A DNA stretch of 64,000 nucleotides from a virus. Under the pieces are notes generated by a model. It was not told the origin of the DNA, made no database searches, and was given only the letters and a program-made list of their open reading frames with translations. How positions within the stretch are numbered: position 1 is the stretch's first letter; each line of letters opens with the position of its first letter. Shown here piece after piece: positions 1-61,628 of this stretch. Location: positions 1 to 64,000 of IMG/VR virus record IMGVR_UViG_3300037459_000157; one strand, 5' to 3'. A program made the translations under genes and the position numbers.

Positions 1-118
1 CCGCAATAATTACCCCCATGAAGTATAGTACTAATGGTGATACATTACGCGCAATCATCAACACGATTGATGCGAAGATTAGGGCAGTGCCTACCAATAG
101 AATTGCTATGCTAATCAT
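1..118 (-). CDS. small membrane protein, 3' end cut by window edge
   Basis: The frame starts at ATG 118 and runs off the left edge after 39 codons, so the C-terminus is missing. The visible part begins MISIAILLVG and is almost wholly hydrophobic, enough for one or two membrane helices. AAGGAC lies just before the start as a ribosome-binding site. The preceding gene ends 7 bases upstream, so this is the last visible member of the left minus-strand operon. Function unknown. Confidence 0.6.
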   Translation of the reverse strand, partial: MISIAILLVGTALIFASIVLMIARNVSPLVLYFMGVIIA

Positions 119-125
119 GTCCTTA

Positions 126-491
126 TCAATCTAAAGTGCACCCAAACAAATCACAGCAGTATCGTGTAGTCCTGTACGTGCCTTTTCGTTTGTACTCGAT
201 CTCAAACCCACGCTTACCTGTTGAATCGCCTCCGCGGGTGCGACACGAATACCGCTGGAGCATCTTGTGCTCATCCGACTCGGGTATAGACTCCGCCCTG
301 CGCATCGCCTTCTCGGCGAACCCAGACTCTCCGCCTTGGTCGGCGTACAAGAGGCCGCACCCGACGCAAACCGCTACGGCGAGCACTATGCCGACAGCTA
401 CCACTGCGATTGACTCGCTTCCTCCTCCTCCTCCAGGATTCCATTCGCCCATTTCTAGTTCCTCTGGTGTACATTTGTCGTTGTATGTCAT
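126..491 (-). CDS. single-pass membrane protein, unknown function
   Basis: A 121-residue protein. A glycine run (residues 19-24) precedes a strongly hydrophobic helix at about 27-48 (SIAVVAVGIVLAVAVCVG), followed by a charged C-terminal half with four cysteines (SCRTR, YCCDLFGC). The paired cysteines suggest disulphides in an exported domain. It lies one base after the stop of the previous gene, so the two are probably translated together. I do not recognise the family. Confidence 0.65.
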   Translation of the reverse strand: MTYNDKCTPEELEMGEWNPGGGGGSESIAVVAVGIVLAVAVCVGCGLLYADQGGESGFAEKAMRRAESIPESDEHKMLQRYSCRTRGGDSTGKRGFEIEYKRKGTYRTTRYCCDLFGCTLD

Positions 492-17392: not shown

Positions 17393-17716
17393 GTGTCCCT
17401 GTCGATCGTCCCTGACCCCGCTGAGCGGAGCGCTGCTGATGCCTTGAGCTCGCAGATAAAGAAGCTCTCGCGGCTGGTGGATAGGGCCATAGACGACAAG
17501 TACGAGGGCGACGCGGACATCCTGGCCAAGCTCGTGACCGCAATGGCGCGGCTCATCGAGGCCCGCACCAAGGCCGAGCAGAGCATCAAGCCGGCCGCTC
17601 TGGCGGCTCTCATGGCTGGGATGGCCAGCGTTGTAAACGCGCACGTGACGGCCCCGGACATAAGGTCGAGCATACGGCGCGAGTGGCACCGGCTCTCTAA
17701 GGAGCTCGCTGGATGA
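17393..17716 (+). CDS. terminase small subunit candidate
   Basis: A 107-residue helical protein with GTG start, directly upstream of and overlapping the large terminase gene. It has no recognisable HTH, but its size, helical content and position are those of small terminase subunits, which recognise the packaging site and form rings. It is called from context; sequence support is weak. Confidence 0.5.
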   Translation: MSLSIVPDPAERSAADALSSQIKKLSRLVDRAIDDKYEGDADILAKLVTAMARLIEARTKAEQSIKPAALAALMAGMASVVNAHVTAPDIRSSIRREWHRLSKELAG

Positions 17717-20166
17717 GCTCGGCTCTCGCCGAAGCGCTGTCGATTGGGGCGGACGCGCTCGACATCGGCTCGGACATATTGACGCCTGAGCAGATTGAGG
17801 CTGGGCGCACCGACTTGATGATGGCGATTCAAAACGTCAAGTCGAACTACATCATCAACTGGCACCATAGTCAGCTCGCAGATACATTGGACAAGGTCCA
17901 GCGTGGGGAGATAACCCGGCTCATTGTTATGATGCCGCCTCAGCATGGGAAGGCGCTCGAAGACTCGACGCCCATACCTACGCCTGACGGATGGAAAGCC
18001 ATGGGTGACTTGCGTGTCGGCGACATGGTGTACAGTGACTCAGGCAAGCAGGTCCCTGTGCAAGCTGTCCACCACTGGAAGGGCCGAGAGTTGTACCGAG
18101 TCACCACCGACGACGGGCACTCTGTCATGGCCGACTCGGAGCACTTGTGGTCGGTCAGGCTGTGTCGTAAGCGGCCAGTATGGAAGGACCACCGGACGGC
18201 CTACCTCGCCAACAGAGCAAGTGCCAGGCGCCCTATGATTCCAACTCATGGGGCCATCGAGTGCGACGAGGTCGAGCTTCCGATTGCGCCGTACACCTTA
18301 GGTATCTGGCTGGGCGATGGCAACCGTAGGCACGCATTCGTCACAAGTGGCGACCAAGATATTGATTTTATCCGCGAGCAAATCGAGCTCGACGGGTTCG
18401 AGACTCGGTTGCATACGGCAAGGGGGAACTTCGGGATTCTCGGCCTGCTGAGGAAGCTGCGGCTTGCCAACTTGTTGGACAACAAGCACATCCCATCTGA
18501 ATACTTCAGGGCATCCAAGGCCCAGCGACTGGCACTGTTACAGGGGCTCATCGACACCGACGGATACGTTTCGCCAGAGGGCCAGATTGAATTCTGCTCA
18601 ACTACTAGGGCGATCGCCGATGGTGTGCTCGAACTCATTCATTCGCTCGGTGTGAAGGCGTCCCTGATTGAGGGCCGGGCAACTCTGGACGGGGTGGACT
18701 ACGGGTCCAAGTACCGAGTCATGTTTTACATGGGTAGCGCTGCCAGGCTGCCACGACGGAAGCAGCTTGCACGAGATGCTCAGCGGGCTAGCCGCTATCT
18801 ATCGTTTGAGCGAGCCGGAACGGGTGATACGACGTGTATCACGGTTGGCGGCAATGGTCGATTCCTCTGCGGCAAGGCCATGATCGTGACGCACAACTCC
18901 GAGGAGGTATCTCGGCACTTCCCTGCCACCTGCTTGGGACGGAACCCCAACGAGAAGATTATCGCATGCTCGTACTCGGCAACGCTGGCTGCGAAGATGG
19001 GCCGCGATGTTCAAAACATCATGGGAACTGAGGAGTACCAGGCGATGTTTAGCACCCGGCTCAAGTCGGGTGTCGACGCGCGCAAGGGTTCGGCTAAAAA
19101 GAAAGAGACCAACCTAGAGTTCGACGTCGTCAATGGCGAAGGCTACTACATCGGCGCCGGTGTTGGTGGCCCTATTACTGGGATGGGCTTTTCCCTCGGA
19201 ATCATCGACGACTACTGCAAGAACCGCAAGGAAGCCGAATCGAAAACGTGGAGAGACGCGACGTGGGACTGGTATACGTCCACGTTCAGGTCGCGCAGGG
19301 CGGGCGGTATGTCCGACTGCGGCGTCGACCGAATCATCATCTGCGCGACGCCGTGGCATGAGGACGACTTGATTGGCCGAGTGCTGAGGAATGCCAAACG
19401 TGTTGGCGAGACATGGCACATCCTAAGGTTCCCGGCTGTCTACGATGGTGAGGGTGCGGGCGACTTCAGTTCGACCATAGGCAAGGACGAGCGCAGATTT
19501 GGTCAGCCACTATGGCCAAAGAAGATGAACCTCAAGGACCTGGAGGTCGAACGCAAGACGAGCCCCTCAGACTGGACGTCGCTCTGGCAGTGCAGGCCAT
19601 CCGCAGCCAAGGGAAACATATTCAACCGCGACCATTGGGGCATGTACACGGTGTTGCCCAAGGGCCAGTTGACCTACACGTTCAGCCTTGACTGCGCGTT
19701 CAAGGATGGCGACTCGTCGTCGTTTGTGGTGCTCCAGCTATGGGCGAATCAAGGCCCGAATCATTATCTCGTCGAACAGTGGCGCGACCGCCTCGACTAC
19801 AAGAAGACGAAGAAGCTGTGTCGGGATAAGTTCCGCGAGTACCCGGAGGCGATGACCAAGCTGATTGAGGCCAAGGCGAATGGGCCGGCCATCATCAATG
19901 AGCTCAGCGAGGAGTTCTCTGGGCTCGTACCAATCGAGCCCAAGGGTGGCAAGGCGGCGCGCGCGATGGCTATCCAGGGCATCGTCGAGGCTGGTAACGT
20001 GTATCTGCCAGAACACGCGAATTGGCTGGGTGAGTTCATGAACGAAACTGCATCATTCCCGCATTCCCCGAACGACGATCAAGTCGACGCGATGACGCAG
20101 TACCTTGAGCGGCAGGGGGTCGACGGACTCAACTTCCTGAATGAATTGCTAGGGGCGGCGCAATAA
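17713..20166 (+). CDS. terL: terminase large subunit interrupted by an intein
   Basis: An 817-residue precursor; without the 315-residue intein the mature packaging motor has 502 residues, normal for TerL. The Walker A motif PPQHGKS is split: residues 75-80 lie before the intein and Ser396 directly after it. Walker B is LGIIDD (Asp499/Asp500). The nuclease domain shows FSLDCAFKDGD (Asp660) and HSPNDDQVDAM (Asp788-Asp792). It powers DNA translocation into the prohead and cuts concatemers. The protein is inactive until the intein is spliced out. Portal gene follows after one base. Confidence 0.95.
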   Translation: MSSALAEALSIGADALDIGSDILTPEQIEAGRTDLMMAIQNVKSNYIINWHHSQLADTLDKVQRGEITRLIVMMPPQHGKALEDSTPIPTPDGWKAMGDLRVGDMVYSDSGKQVPVQAVHHWKGRELYRVTTDDGHSVMADSEHLWSVRLCRKRPVWKDHRTAYLANRASARRPMIPTHGAIECDEVELPIAPYTLGIWLGDGNRRHAFVTSGDQDIDFIREQIELDGFETRLHTARGNFGILGLLRKLRLANLLDNKHIPSEYFRASKAQRLALLQGLIDTDGYVSPEGQIEFCSTTRAIADGVLELIHSLGVKASLIEGRATLDGVDYGSKYRVMFYMGSAARLPRRKQLARDAQRASRYLSFERAGTGDTTCITVGGNGRFLCGKAMIVTHNSEEVSRHFPATCLGRNPNEKIIACSYSATLAAKMGRDVQNIMGTEEYQAMFSTRLKSGVDARKGSAKKKETNLEFDVVNGEGYYIGAGVGGPITGMGFSLGIIDDYCKNRKEAESKTWRDATWDWYTSTFRSRRAGGMSDCGVDRIIICATPWHEDDLIGRVLRNAKRVGETWHILRFPAVYDGEGAGDFSSTIGKDERRFGQPLWPKKMNLKDLEVERKTSPSDWTSLWQCRPSAAKGNIFNRDHWGMYTVLPKGQLTYTFSLDCAFKDGDSSSFVVLQLWANQGPNHYLVEQWRDRLDYKKTKKLCRDKFREYPEAMTKLIEAKANGPAIINELSEEFSGLVPIEPKGGKAARAMAIQGIVEAGNVYLPEHANWLGEFMNETASFPHSPNDDQVDAMTQYLERQGVDGLNFLNELLGAAQ
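17953..18897 (+). other. class 3 intein with LAGLIDADG endonuclease, inside terL
   Basis: Residues 81-395 of the terminase precursor. It starts with Ala (ALEDSTPIPTPDGW) rather than Cys or Ser and ends VTHN before Ser396. The class 3 WCT triplet is visible: Trp146 (HLW), Cys375 (TTCITV) and Thr393 (VTHN), so splicing should start with attack by Cys375. Two dodecapeptides, TLGIWLGDG (195-203) and LQGLIDTDGY (276-285), identify a LAGLIDADG homing endonuclease. Insertion in Walker A ties phage viability to splicing. Confidence 0.9.
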
Positions 20167-49586: not shown

Positions 49587-49598
49587 GAGGATCACCCC

Positions 49599-49781
49599 GA
49601 CCACGACCGCGACCCCGACCGCGACCCCGACCGCGACCACGACCCCGACCGCGACCGCGACCACGACCCCGACCGCGACCACGACCACGACCGCGACCAC
49701 GACCGCGACCCCGACCACGACCACGACCGCGACCCCGACCGCGACCACGACCCCGACCGCGACCACGACCACGACCACGAC
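49599..49781. repeat. hexanucleotide tandem repeat, about 30 copies
   Basis: 183 bases of GACCNC, where N is A, C or G but never T. The variable base is in an otherwise invariant unit. Frames through it read Asp-(His/Arg/Pro), Thr-(Thr/Pro/Ala) or a constant Pro-Arg; none has a credible start. It sits between the late terminator and the convergent minus-strand gene, so it is probably a non-coding repeat. Confidence 0.9.
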
Positions 49782-50211: not shown

Positions 50212-50406
50212 CCCGTCTTTCCGGGCTGTCCGCGGGCCTCTCACCCGCACGAACGCTGCCTAGTTTGAAAGTGACATCAGCGTTTCAGTCCTCACTTGTG
50301 CTCCGGGCAGGTATCGAACCTGCGTAGTCAGCTGACGGGCGTGCAGTACTGCAGTCCCTGGGGTGCCTCCCCCACCGAAGCTAGGTGCCCGTCTTTCCGG
50401 GCTGTC
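50212..50406 (-). repeat. 19-bp repeat, two copies
   Basis: CCCGTCTTTCCGGGCTGTC is identical at 50212-50230 and 50388-50406, 176 bases apart. On the minus strand each copy folds as CCCG-GAAAGA-CGGG. The copies separate the tRNA-like units and may be RNA-processing sites or recombination remnants. Confidence 0.8.
50300..50381 (-). tRNA. tRNA-like element, anticodon not assignable
   Basis: On the minus strand an acceptor stem GCTTCGG/CCGGAGC (one G-U), a short D-arm with GGGG/CCCC and a perfect T-arm GCAGG-TTCGATA-CCTGC are present in tRNA order over 82 bases. The middle part has a 12-base palindrome (TGCAGTACTGCA) and no normal 5+7+5 anticodon arm. It is either a degenerate tRNA or a tRNA-like RNA. 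Confidence 0.35.
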
Positions 50407-50470
50407 AAATGTTCGCCTGTTGTGCGGCCGCACACGCTAGCTAAGCCATGGAACATCAAACGTAGGCTTG

Positions 50471-50550
50471 TGCTCATCGAAGGACTCGAACCTCCGACCC
50501 ACCCCCGGTTGTTACCCGGTGATTGCTCTTTCCGACTGAGCTAGATGAGC
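50471..50550 (-). tRNA. tRNA, possibly tRNA-Val(AAC), atypical anticodon arm
   Basis: Acceptor GCTCATC/GATGAGC (7 bp) with A as discriminator and no encoded CCA, D-arm GCTC/GAGC, T-arm GGAGG-TTCGAGT-CCTTC. The anticodon loop reads GTAACAA (anticodon AAC after U33) on a four-pair stem; three extra G residues follow the stem and three extra bases precede it, so the total is 80 bases. AAC is unusual in bacteria. Identity and function are uncertain; the cloverleaf itself is clear. Confidence 0.6.
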
Positions 50551-53523: not shown

Positions 53524-54021
53524 CTATTGCCACTCCTTGATTGCCGATTCAATATCAGCGCCGCCGGTGCTGCTGGGCTCATCGTCGCAAGTCCAAGAGC
53601 GCCCGCCGCCCAGGGTGGATGGAGCGACAACATATGCCCCATCCGAGTGGACGCCAATTCCATTTACAGAGCCAGTGGTCAGGCCCTCTGCATATTTGTA
53701 GTATAAATGGCATCCGTTGTTTGGGGTTGTGGCCATCAGCGTCTTCGGGAAAAGATCGCGCACAAGCTCGTCATCTACTTTAATTCCGTCAATATCCAGG
53801 ACCACAAGACCTGAAATCTTTCCGGTGACAATGGCCACTCCAGCATCAGGCCACTGATTCCACCACTCTCGAATCTGAGCCTCATCGGCCGCCTTGGTTT
53901 GAAATCCGGACCAGACCACGAGCGGCTTCTTGCCGCAGCCGTCTGGGCTAATGGGGATGACTGACCAGCCGCGAGCTGCGTAGCTGAGCGCTGCCTCAAG
54001 TGTTTCGTTTGCTGCTTCCAT
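53524..54021 (-). CDS. stand-alone prim-pol domain, probably degenerate
   Basis: A 165-residue protein comparable to the N-terminal 160 residues of the next gene's product: the DxD motif is kept (LVVLDID, Asp76, Asp78) and so is the His motif (GCHLYY, His105). The third motif GVDVRAEGGYVVAP of the neighbour reads GIGVHSDGAYVVAP here, so the Asp is Gly and the Arg is His. It is therefore probably inactive in synthesis or altered in function. It has its own promoter. Confidence 0.75.
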   Translation of the reverse strand: MEAANETLEAALSYAARGWSVIPISPDGCGKKPLVVWSGFQTKAADEAQIREWWNQWPDAGVAIVTGKISGLVVLDIDGIKVDDELVRDLFPKTLMATTPNNGCHLYYKYAEGLTTGSVNGIGVHSDGAYVVAPSTLGGGRSWTCDDEPSSTGGADIESAIKEWQ

Positions 54022-54029
54022 CGGGATAC

Positions 54030-56000
54030 CTATATTGCACCAGCCACCCGCAGTGTCAAGACCTTTTCGTATCTTTGTTTGTCATCGGTCAGCCGAACGC
54101 GGTCGGATTCATGCAGTCGGTCGAACGCCGCGCGGAGCGGGCTCGGCAAGCCGTGCACTTCATCAGGGCCGATAGTCGCCTTCTCAAGCATGGCAAACAC
54201 CACATCCTCGCGCTTCTGCTCGTCCGGCGTCAGCTGGGTCTGGATGTCTATCTGCGGCATGATGTTCGGGGGAATCATCAGGTGCTCGTCGTCCTCGATC
54301 TTGCGGTCGGGGTCGATGAGTGCCTTCATACCCTTGTGGTCGAGCTCAGATACGCGCGTGTCGAACCGCCACTCGCCAGGGTCTTCGCTACTGCCGTCGA
54401 AGATGTCGAAGTCGACGCGGATGGGGTCCTTCGCTTCACCATCCTTACTTCGTCGCTGAATCACCACAGATCGAGGCATGCCCTCGATATTGCTGAACGC
54501 CATGCTCGTCTCGTTGGCCGCGTTGAGAAACTGACTGCCGTGCAGGCCGTCGCGTGAGCCGGAGCCGCGGCTGGCCTTGCTCGTGTGGTGGACGATCATG
54601 AATGTGCACCTGTAAATATCCCTGAGCTTCTTGAGCTCAATCAAGTACTGGGATGCTGCCTCCATGTTATTTTCTGTAGACACCATTGAGTAGAACGGGT
54701 CCAAGAAAAACGCGACCGGCTTGTGCTTGATGAGCAGGCGTTCAATCTTGGCCATCGCTCCGGGTTTGTCGAATCGAAAGTCGCGCTTTTCGTATAGCTT
54801 GATTTTAGATCTCTCCTTGTGACAGTCCCACGTGAATATACCGTTTTCGATCCTCGGTTTCTTCAGCCCAGTCCTGCCCGCCCAGATGGTGGCGATGCGC
54901 TCTGACGTGGTGATGTGGCTGTCCTCCTGCTGGAAGATGATGACCGTGCCCGTACGCTGGGGCCTGGCGACACCAAGAAACGGTGTGCCCTGAGCGATGC
55001 TCACGGCCAGGTCGAGCTCGCCCCATGACTTGTACGAGCCAGGCGGGCCGAACAGAAAGCCGATGGTGCAGTCGGTGAGGAAGCCGGGTATCAGCCACTG
55101 GACCTCCTTGCCGCCGTGCTTGAGGGCGTAGTCGTCGAAGTCGATGAGTTCGAGTTCGTCGTCTCCTTCGGTCGGGGCCTCGATCTCGCCGGACTTGATG
55201 GCCTGTTTCGTGGCGTCGTCTCGCTTGCGGGCTTCTCTGCCGCAGATGCTGCGGACTGTGCGTTCGACTTCGGCGTAGTCGAGGGGGTTGGCTAGCTTCG
55301 CGTTGGCGTCAATGCAGACCTGAAGGACGCCCTCGTGAATGACGCCCTTGCCTGCGTAGTACCCCGCCAGCTTGGTGAGGTCGTTGTTGCGAGTCCCCTC
55401 GGATGAGCCACCGAGCTGCGTGTCCATGAGCCAGGTCTCGCGCTGGGGCTGAGCGAACAGCGGCGAGTTGTCCACCCCGTTCGCATGCCCATTCAACTTC
55501 TCTCGATCCGACTTGGATGGCGACAGCTCAATTGTCTTGGCGACGGTGATGGTCCCCGGCTTGTCGTCGAGGTCCCACTCGTAGGCGTTGCCCGACTCGT
55601 GCTTGCTCGGCGGGGCCACGACGTAACCGCCCTCGGCTCGGACGTCCACACCATTGTCGCCGGTCCGGTTGCGCGCACCTTCGACGTAGGTGTAGTAGTG
55701 GTGCTGCCCTCCGCCGCCGGTGTTGACGACCATGTCGGTCGGCGGGAAGCCGACGTCGGTGCCGCCGTGCTTTGGGTCGACATCCATCACCACCAGCTTG
55801 GATAGCTTGCCTGTGACGATGCCGACTCCGGCGTCGGGGAATGATTTCCACCAAGCTCGTATCTGTGTCTCGTCTGCTTTTCTGGTCTGCCACTCTTCCC
55901 ACCGCACCAGCGGCTTCTTCATATTGCCCCTGCCCGATATCGGTATGACGGAATAGCCGTCCTTCGCATACTCGATTGCCGCCTCAAGACAATAGGTCAT
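54030..56000 (-). CDS. primase-polymerase fused to RepA-like helicase
   Basis: A 656-residue protein. Residues 1-150 are a prim-pol domain (Asp73 and Asp75 in VVMDVDP, His100/His101, and GVDVRAEGGYVVAPPS with Asp119). Residues 180-265 form a PriCT-like helical region. From about 300, GFLFGPPGSYKSWGELDLAV (Walker A 318-325) and FFLDPFYSM/FMIVHHTSK are a RepA/DnaB-like hexameric helicase fold. It can synthesise primers and unwind the fork; it is the main replication enzyme here, as no DNA polymerase is present. Confidence 0.85.
   Translation of the reverse strand: MTYCLEAAIEYAKDGYSVIPISGRGNMKKPLVRWEEWQTRKADETQIRAWWKSFPDAGVGIVTGKLSKLVVMDVDPKHGGTDVGFPPTDMVVNTGGGGQHHYYTYVEGARNRTGDNGVDVRAEGGYVVAPPSKHESGNAYEWDLDDKPGTITVAKTIELSPSKSDREKLNGHANGVDNSPLFAQPQRETWLMDTQLGGSSEGTRNNDLTKLAGYYAGKGVIHEGVLQVCIDANAKLANPLDYAEVERTVRSICGREARKRDDATKQAIKSGEIEAPTEGDDELELIDFDDYALKHGGKEVQWLIPGFLTDCTIGFLFGPPGSYKSWGELDLAVSIAQGTPFLGVARPQRTGTVIIFQQEDSHITTSERIATIWAGRTGLKKPRIENGIFTWDCHKERSKIKLYEKRDFRFDKPGAMAKIERLLIKHKPVAFFLDPFYSMVSTENNMEAASQYLIELKKLRDIYRCTFMIVHHTSKASRGSGSRDGLHGSQFLNAANETSMAFSNIEGMPRSVVIQRRSKDGEAKDPIRVDFDIFDGSSEDPGEWRFDTRVSELDHKGMKALIDPDRKIEDDEHLMIPPNIMPQIDIQTQLTPDEQKREDVVFAMLEKATIGPDEVHGLPSPLRAAFDRLHESDRVRLTDDKQRYEKVLTLRVAGAI
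54031..54059 (-). promoter_or_regulatory. promoter for the stand-alone prim-pol gene
   Basis: TTGACA (54059-54054), 17 bases, AATATA (54036-54031); shifted readings give TATAGG seven bases before ATG 54021. It overlaps the last bases of the helicase gene, so the gene and the recombination genes downstream can be transcribed separately. Confidence 0.55.
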
Positions 56001-59400: not shown

Positions 59401-59802
59401 TCATATCAATTCCATCTGACCGCTGCCCGGCCTGCTCGCTCGGCACGTCGGGCCGGATTCGGTGCCCCGAAGCTGCATGGGAATCACCTGCAGTCCTGCC
59501 TGTATCGCCAGACTTCGCATGGACCGAGTGCCTGCTCCGCCGGGGAAGAGCACGACCGCCGTCGCATACTCGGCCATCTGGGCGTTGCGCAGCGGACCTG
59601 CCTTGCGGCCCAGTGACCAGTCGGCAGGGAACGTCTGAACCGGTATGCCGCGCGCCTTGGCCCAGCCCTCTCCGCCTGAGTCAGCTCCTCTACAGCAGCC
59701 GCTCACGACCTCGCCGACTGGCCCGAGACTGTCGAGGAACTCCCAGTCCTGATCGTTGAGTTGATAGCCCCTGCCGCCTGCGATGATGAGTCGTTCGATC
59801 AT
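59401..59802 (-). CDS. SLOG-superfamily DUF2493 protein
   Basis: A 133-residue protein. RLIIAGGRGYQLNDQDWEFLDSLG, VVSGCCRGADSGGEGWAKARGIPVQTFPADW, GRKAGPLRNAQMAEYATAVVLFPGGAGT are the hallmarks of DUF2493/YspA (SLOG) proteins, which bind or sense nucleotide-derived ligands. Phage members are common; function unknown, possibly linked to nucleotide-signal defence. Confidence 0.8.
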   Translation of the reverse strand: MIERLIIAGGRGYQLNDQDWEFLDSLGPVGEVVSGCCRGADSGGEGWAKARGIPVQTFPADWSLGRKAGPLRNAQMAEYATAVVLFPGGAGTRSMRSLAIQAGLQVIPMQLRGTESGPTCRASRPGSGQMELI

Positions 59803-60605: not shown

Positions 60606-61628
60606 CTACTGCCCGAAGATCTTTCTGATAGTCCGAATGACAGCGCCCACATCGTCTTTATTTGTATTCTTGTCGTTCATGAAGTCCATGAGTTCGTCCC
60701 AGCACTTGGCTTTGACATGGGTGACAGCGCTGACTGGCATGTCTGCGGCGGCTTTGACCAGGTCTCCCATGGCCTCAAACGCGGCGGTCGCTGCCTTCAT
60801 CTCATCGACGTCAGCCTCGGGCTCGGGTTTGGATTCGGCCTCGACCTTGGGCTCTGGCTCTGGGGAGCTGTAATTCCCCTCGACTCTAATCGTCAAGTGT
60901 CCGACGACTAGGACGTCGCCGTCTTTTATGACGGCGTTTCTCTCGATTTGCTTGCCGTTGACTTGAGTCCCGTACAATGACCCCCGGTCTATCACTCGTA
61001 TGGTGCCAAGCACATCCTTCTCGACAACAGCGTGCCTCCGCTCGATGTCAAGACTGTCGTCATTGATGGTATTGCTCTTGAGTCGACCTATGCTGATTGG
61101 GTCGCTCTCCACTTGCACGACGTCGATCATGGTCTCACCTCTGAACACTCTGAGCCTCATACCCCTAGGAGCCACGCTCTCTGGCTCGGGCTCGGGCTCC
61201 TTGACCTTGGTCGGCTCGGGCTCCCTGGCTTTAGCCGGCTCGGGCTCCTTGACCTTGGTCGGTTCAGGTGCAGCCACAGGTGCAGCCACCGGTGGAGCGA
61301 CCGGCCCCGAGGATTTAGGTGCGTACTTGCTTGTGCAGTCATCTCCTACAACTTTGATCTGGAACGAGCCAACACCTATGACGTCGCCCGGTTCGATTCT
61401 TGTGCCGGAGTCAATCTTTTTTCCGTTGAGGAAGGTTCCGTGCCACGAGCTCATGTCCCTAATCACAACCTCATCCTTGGATGGCTTAAAATAGGCATGT
61501 AACTCGTCAACCTCGGGGTCATCCAGGCAAATCGGGTACCTTTTACGCGTGCCGATGTTGATATCGTCCCTGCCGACAGCCACGGTCTTGAGGAGATCGC
61601 CCGACTCGTTGTACACTTGAAGTTTCAT
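60606..61628 (-). CDS. twin FHA-domain protein
   Basis: A 340-residue protein. FHA1 (about 18-95) shows IGTRKRYPICLDDPEVDELHAYF and SSWHGTFLNGKKI (Asn68-Gly69, His44). FHA2 (about 175-250) shows SIGRLKSNTINDDSLDIERRHAVVE and SLYGTQVNGKQI (Gly181-Arg182, His199, Asn224-Gly225). They are joined by Glu/Pro/Lys repeats (122-152), and a C-terminal helical region follows. FHA domains bind phosphothreonine peptides. No kinase or enzyme domain is attached. Confidence 0.85.
   Translation of the reverse strand: MKLQVYNESGDLLKTVAVGRDDINIGTRKRYPICLDDPEVDELHAYFKPSKDEVVIRDMSSWHGTFLNGKKIDSGTRIEPGDVIGVGSFQIKVVGDDCTSKYAPKSSGPVAPPVAAPVAAPEPTKVKEPEPAKAREPEPTKVKEPEPEPESVAPRGMRLRVFRGETMIDVVQVESDPISIGRLKSNTINDDSLDIERRHAVVEKDVLGTIRVIDRGSLYGTQVNGKQIERNAVIKDGDVLVVGHLTIRVEGNYSSPEPEPKVEAESKPEPEADVDEMKAATAAFEAMGDLVKAAADMPVSAVTHVKAKCWDELMDFMNDKNTNKDDVGAVIRTIRKIFGQ

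Follow-up and report, generated by a model that had tools for sequence, protein, structure and literature searches.

Of the five residues conserved in FHA domains, Arg, Ser and Asn are in contact with the phosphopeptide, and Gly and His have a structural role (PMC4037201). The fold can outlast the pocket, as illustrated by the cytoplasmic FHA domain of the T3SS SctD proteins (PrgH/YscD/MxiG), in which the phosphopeptide residues are poorly conserved and the domain still acts as a protein interface; mutating the corresponding positions of PrgH left secretion unaffected (PMC3635987). GltG, a member of the M. xanthus gliding complex (PMC3169522; PMC5349195), carries a cytosolic FHA domain (residues 26-90), ends in a TonB-like periplasmic part and has AglR as an interaction partner (PMC3169522); a review places it within the scaffold through which the motors are coupled to MreB (PMC13104615). 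The contact with AglR may be made through the transmembrane helix of GltG, and gliding itself is found far less widely than GltG-like proteins. To our knowledge, no binding partner of the GltG FHA domain has been demonstrated.

Other FHA proteins provide further points of comparison. GarA, OdhI and FhaB are small bacterial proteins with a single FHA domain and a canonical R-S-N pocket, to which GarA and OdhI add an N-terminal phospho-switch. In the KKP prophage module, a prophage-encoded FHA domain with a role in regulation or defence is fused to a PfkB kinase and lies beside kinase and phosphatase genes (PMC11341870). Here we describe a phage protein that carries two FHA domains and resembles each of these in part: it has the degenerate pocket of the SctD proteins, which have one FHA domain in a membrane ring protein and are not its closest relatives by sequence, and it is most akin to GltG. 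Its identity as a twin GltG-type FHA protein is well supported, and a twin FHA protein of the GltG type that comes from a virus and has lost phosphopeptide residues is new.

Gene and domain structure

The window, by which we mean the whole stretch of 64,000 nucleotides analysed, is most of a 70,639-bp IMG/VR record. An open reading frame with a strong coding score encodes the protein (P0001), whose parts are as follows.

60606-61628, minus strand: twin-FHA protein P0001, 340 aa (Pfam FHA twice; top NCBIfam match GltG, 131.5 bits)
61344-61628, minus strand: FHA1, residues 1-95 (AF2 pLDDT about 97; Foldseek FHA; alignment)
61161-61343, minus strand: linker of Pro, Glu, Lys and Ala, residues 96-156 (contains a 24-bp tandem repeat)
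60879-61160, minus strand: FHA2, residues 157-250 (AF2; Foldseek; GltG-type profile difference +14.4 bits)
60609-60809, minus strand: C-terminal three-helix domain, residues 274-340 (AF2 pLDDT about 72)

The whole protein matched Pfam FHA with E = 8e-26, and the two domains scored 49.3 and 49.7 bits against PF00498, each above the curated cut-off of 20.7. AlphaFold models, built for each domain together with eight further FHA sequences (viral or its own), were confident within both domains, and the closest solved structures found by Foldseek were the FHA domains of Ki67, FhaA, FhaB, GarA and OdhI; both domains belong to PF00498 by profile score and by their FHA beta-sandwich fold alike. A first-pass annotation, made from the sequence alone, had described two FHA domains joined by Glu/Pro/Lys repeats with no kinase domain, and this observation is confirmed in each of its parts. 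The linker holds a degenerate 24-bp (8-aa) repeat at 61189-61262, and no kinase domain was found by Pfam or by a Pkinase search, whether in the protein itself or in the rest of the 70.6-kb phage, in contrast to the fused and adjacent kinases of the KKP module. Overlooked in that annotation was the C-terminal domain of about 65 residues, which a short acidic linker separates from FHA2 and for which three helices are predicted; in the 185-residue model of FHA2 plus this domain they lie at positions 119-140, 144-162 and 169-183. It matched no Pfam family and no known relative, and PADLOC gave no defence-family match for the protein.

The phosphopeptide pocket

By alignment, the Arg, Ser and Asn positions of the pocket are occupied in FHA1 by Thr27, Asp41 and His63, all three contact residues being gone, and in FHA2 by Arg182, Glu196 and Tyr219, two of the three being gone. 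The structural Gly and His are retained in both domains (His44 in FHA1, His199 in FHA2). Among 143 reference FHA domains, taken from Myxococcota, Streptomyces and other Actinomycetota, Pseudomonadota and viruses, the first position was Arg in 124 and Lys in 15, the second was Ser in 129 and acidic in none, and the third was Asn in 105 and another residue in 38; both phage domains are acidic at the second. Canonical phosphothreonine binding, which calls for Arg, Ser and Asn together, was rejected for this protein on its pocket residues.

The first-pass annotation had read conserved G-R, His and N-G positions as the mark of two phosphothreonine-binding domains. Gly and His do stand in both, and Arg in FHA2, but Arg is missing from FHA1, and the "N-G" that was noticed belongs to a V/L-N-G turn further along and is distinct from the Asn that, within the N-G-T motif, contacts the phosphopeptide. 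A positive profile search for FHA similarity and the survival of the pocket residues in at least one domain were what that reading was staked upon; the former was obtained, while for the latter FHA1 has nothing to offer and FHA2 is saved by Arg182 only. As phosphothreonine binding is not supported, the proposals built upon it, namely the capture of two phosphoproteins and the rewiring of a host kinase pathway, are not supported either. Overall, the earlier interpretation is partly supported.

Relationship to GltG-type FHA domains

In NCBIfam, a curated library independent of our own homology searches, the top family for the protein was GltG (E 3.8e-38, 131.5 bits, in two stretches), followed by FhaB, OdhI and TagH at 68.6, 51.4 and 48.4 bits. 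The score falls short of the 650-bit cut-off of the GltG equivalog NF033760 since the protein has the FHA part alone; Pfam and NCBIfam found no TonB-like or AgmX tail, and the phage protein is not GltG itself. The two domains were also assigned by subtracting the bits obtained with a general FHA profile from those obtained with a GltG profile, leaving out each GltG-type domain in turn. FHA2, at +14.4 bits, lies within the GltG-type range (+13.3 to +55.7), and FHA1, at -5.5 bits, lies between the two classes, above all of 83 other FHA domains (-51.9 to -12.3) and above every tandem-FHA domain that was tested. The outcome was the same once the pocket residues had been masked. In a tree of both, the phage domains adjoin the GltG-type domains with an SH-aLRT of 94, and in single-domain trees the corresponding values are 94 for FHA2 and 85 for FHA1, both domains forming long branches. 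Judged from these profiles and trees, the kinship to GltG-type FHA domains is firm for FHA2 and moderate, with a borderline profile score, for FHA1. The nearest host FHA domains are only about 37% identical, and the function may therefore have drifted.

The best match to P0001 scored 79.8 bits in Myxococcota, 49.5 in Actinomycetota and 48.7 in Pseudomonadota, a gap that is biased when taken alone because Myxococcota have many more FHA domains per genome. The Myxococcota matches were of two main kinds. One comprises tandem-FHA membrane proteins (L111-L128), which have the FHA-linker-FHA order in common with the phage protein but keep the pocket Arg and Ser and possess a membrane segment and C-terminal repeats; proteins of this type are widespread in Myxococcota, and in many of them the first FHA domain has Tyr where the pocket Asn would be. 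The other comprises FHA domains at the N-terminus of GltG/PglI-like proteins whose C-terminal tail is of the AgmX/PglI kind, and matches to the GltG model were present in 171 of the 178 Myxococcota genomes sampled, none above the equivalog cut-off. The pocket Asn is absent from all 17 FHA domains drawn from the best GltG-model matches; pocket degeneracy is therefore a feature of the type as a whole that has gone further in the phage. GltG/PglI and its Myxococcota relatives share the FHA type of the phage protein and the loss of Asn. They differ from it in that the phage protein doubles the FHA domain, is acidic where the pocket Ser would be and ends in a helical C-terminus of its own, with neither a TonB-like C-terminus nor a periplasmic part. 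Its nearest relatives are FHA domains of GltG-like envelope and motility proteins and not of kinase-pathway proteins. Taken together, it is very probably a GltG-type FHA protein in which phosphothreonine recognition has been lost or altered.

Rarity among viruses

FHA domains are very rare in viruses, as the first-pass annotation had held for phages. Relatives of P0001 numbered zero among 50,697 phage records (tblastn), 2.9 million viral contigs and 84,980 species genomes (peptide-pattern scans for the latter two), and PHROGs held no match to it. A GarA query found FHA in only 10 phage records, mostly unannotated faecal contigs. Two DNA-signature scans of the 2.9 million viral contigs found an FHA reading frame in 13, each with one FHA domain, a count that is a lower bound since the scans require a canonical-looking motif. 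All 13 score higher with the general than with the GltG profile, the opposite of the GltG-type signal in the phage protein, and a single GltG-type query found nothing in the viral contigs and only one weak match among the phage records.

The phage and its probable host

An exact 126-bp direct repeat (window 1-126, record 70513-70638) flanks the record, which is classed as linear, and from this repeat the genome is probably complete at about 70.5 kb. Matches to PHROGs identify a contractile-tailed phage, with a terminase, portal, major head protein, tail sheath, tape measure and baseplate wedge.

17713-47760, plus strand: head-tail module, comprising terminase, portal, minor head, major head, sheath, tape measure and baseplate (PHROGs; gene order)

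The minus strand encodes a Prim-Pol, an SNF2-type helicase and a PD-(D/E)XK nuclease, and the FHA gene sits on this replication-gene strand amid small open reading frames with no assigned function. At 53524-56000 (minus) lie two neighbouring genes, each with a Prim-Pol domain at its start (Pfam, about 1e-28 in either case); in the shorter one this is the sole domain, as a partial duplication would leave it. The terminase large subunit (17713-20166, plus) is split in its Walker A loop by an intein-like insert (residues 81-395, approximately) with Ala at its start, HN/S at its end and a LAGLIDADG domain inside; the initial Ala resembles that of class 3 inteins. A GC-rich tandem array of 12/18 bp closes the tail gene cluster (49594-49781), beside tRNA-Ala and tRNA-Val genes (50298-50550), and near the FHA gene is one for a small YspA/SLOG-like protein of a nucleotide-binding family (59401-59802, minus; Pfam YAcAr 8.5e-9).

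Relatives of the portal were found in 6 of 189 Myxococcota genomes (best 168 bits), in none of 150 Actinomycetota and, weakly, in 2 of 150 Pseudomonadota (best 27 bits), these being the three phyla compared; the same portal type is present in cyanophage and Vibrio phages. Seven Myxococcota contigs match the head and/or tail genes, several over the entire module and with its order conserved. The phage is, by these gene comparisons, akin to Myxococcota-associated myoviruses and its host is probably myxobacterial, an assignment made from MAG contigs that are possibly misbinned. No FHA gene was found in the matching stretches of the seven contigs, nor in the viral records behind the terminase relatives, many of which are short fragments. 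As such, the FHA gene looks like a lineage-specific accessory, and there is no conservation among phage relatives by which to show selection.

Discussion

With its phosphothreonine pocket destroyed, the protein more likely imitates a host docking domain than reads phosphorylation. The best explanation as a whole, to which we would give slightly less than an even chance, is that of a soluble protein made of two GltG-type FHA copies, kin to the N-terminal cytoplasmic domain of the GltG/PglI-like inner-membrane proteins of the TonB/TolA type in Myxococcota, which acts as a largely phospho-independent adaptor or decoy. We infer that its site of action would be the cytoplasm of the myxobacterial host, where, as a bivalent and largely phospho-independent binder, it would occupy or bridge the partner or partners to which host GltG-like FHA domains dock. 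Candidates for this putative target are an ExbB/TolQ-type motor such as AglRQS or the cytoplasmic scaffold of the motor, and the envelope machine would be uncoupled or retuned during infection. Given two FHA domains and no membrane anchor, competition for the host FHA partner, or the cross-linking of partners, would be expected. The decoy mechanism in itself is tentative, and we hold it with less assurance than the explanation as a whole; that a bivalent decoy of a Glt/TonB-type cytoplasmic domain jams or hijacks gliding motility or envelope energy transduction in infection seems unlikely at present.

It is somewhat less probable than the decoy mechanism that the FHA domains form a phospho-independent scaffold in a process unrelated to Glt-type machines, for example by assembling a complex, of phage or host, in which the helical domain at the C-terminus is the effector. 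The low identity to host FHA domains, the unique C-terminal domain and the setting of the gene would suit such a role, as would the solved structures of GarA and OdhI FHA domains bound to 2-oxoglutarate dehydrogenase, a non-kinase enzyme partner, but the specific kinship to GltG-type FHA domains would then be history only. That FHA2 still binds phosphothreonine peptides through Arg182, the protein bridging or shielding phosphorylated host proteins, we regard as quite improbable. Arg182 and His199 do stand in an intact fold, the frequent replacement of Asn among the reference domains means that Asn alone is not absolute, and about 30 FHA matches in one Myxococcota genome suggest active Ser/Thr phosphorylation in the likely host, in support of the signalling-rich host that had been foreseen. 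The substituted positions are nonetheless those that contact the phosphopeptide (PMC4037201), FHA1 retains none of them, and an acidic side chain where the references have none would be expected to repel the phosphate.

Least probable of all is an origin from the myxobacterial tandem-FHA membrane proteins by loss of their membrane and repeat parts. These proteins gave the best full-length tblastn matches (E 3.6e-22, 29% across both FHA domains) and offer the same domain order. Against them stand profile scores below those of the GltG type (50.8 vs 62.1 bits for FHA1, 58.6 vs 79.7 for FHA2) and a tree that places the phage domains apart from theirs, and on these comparisons we would rank such an origin below a GltG-type one.

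Stand-alone viral FHA proteins are almost unheard of, and the twin-FHA protein indicates a specific type of host protein rather than kinase signalling in general. If it binds the partners of GltG, it would be a ready reagent for finding the docking partner of the GltG FHA domain, and would point to interference by phages with the surface motility or envelope energy transduction of myxobacteria. Should it indeed jam or hijack these machines, it would be a phage-encoded antagonist of focal-adhesion-type bacterial motility.
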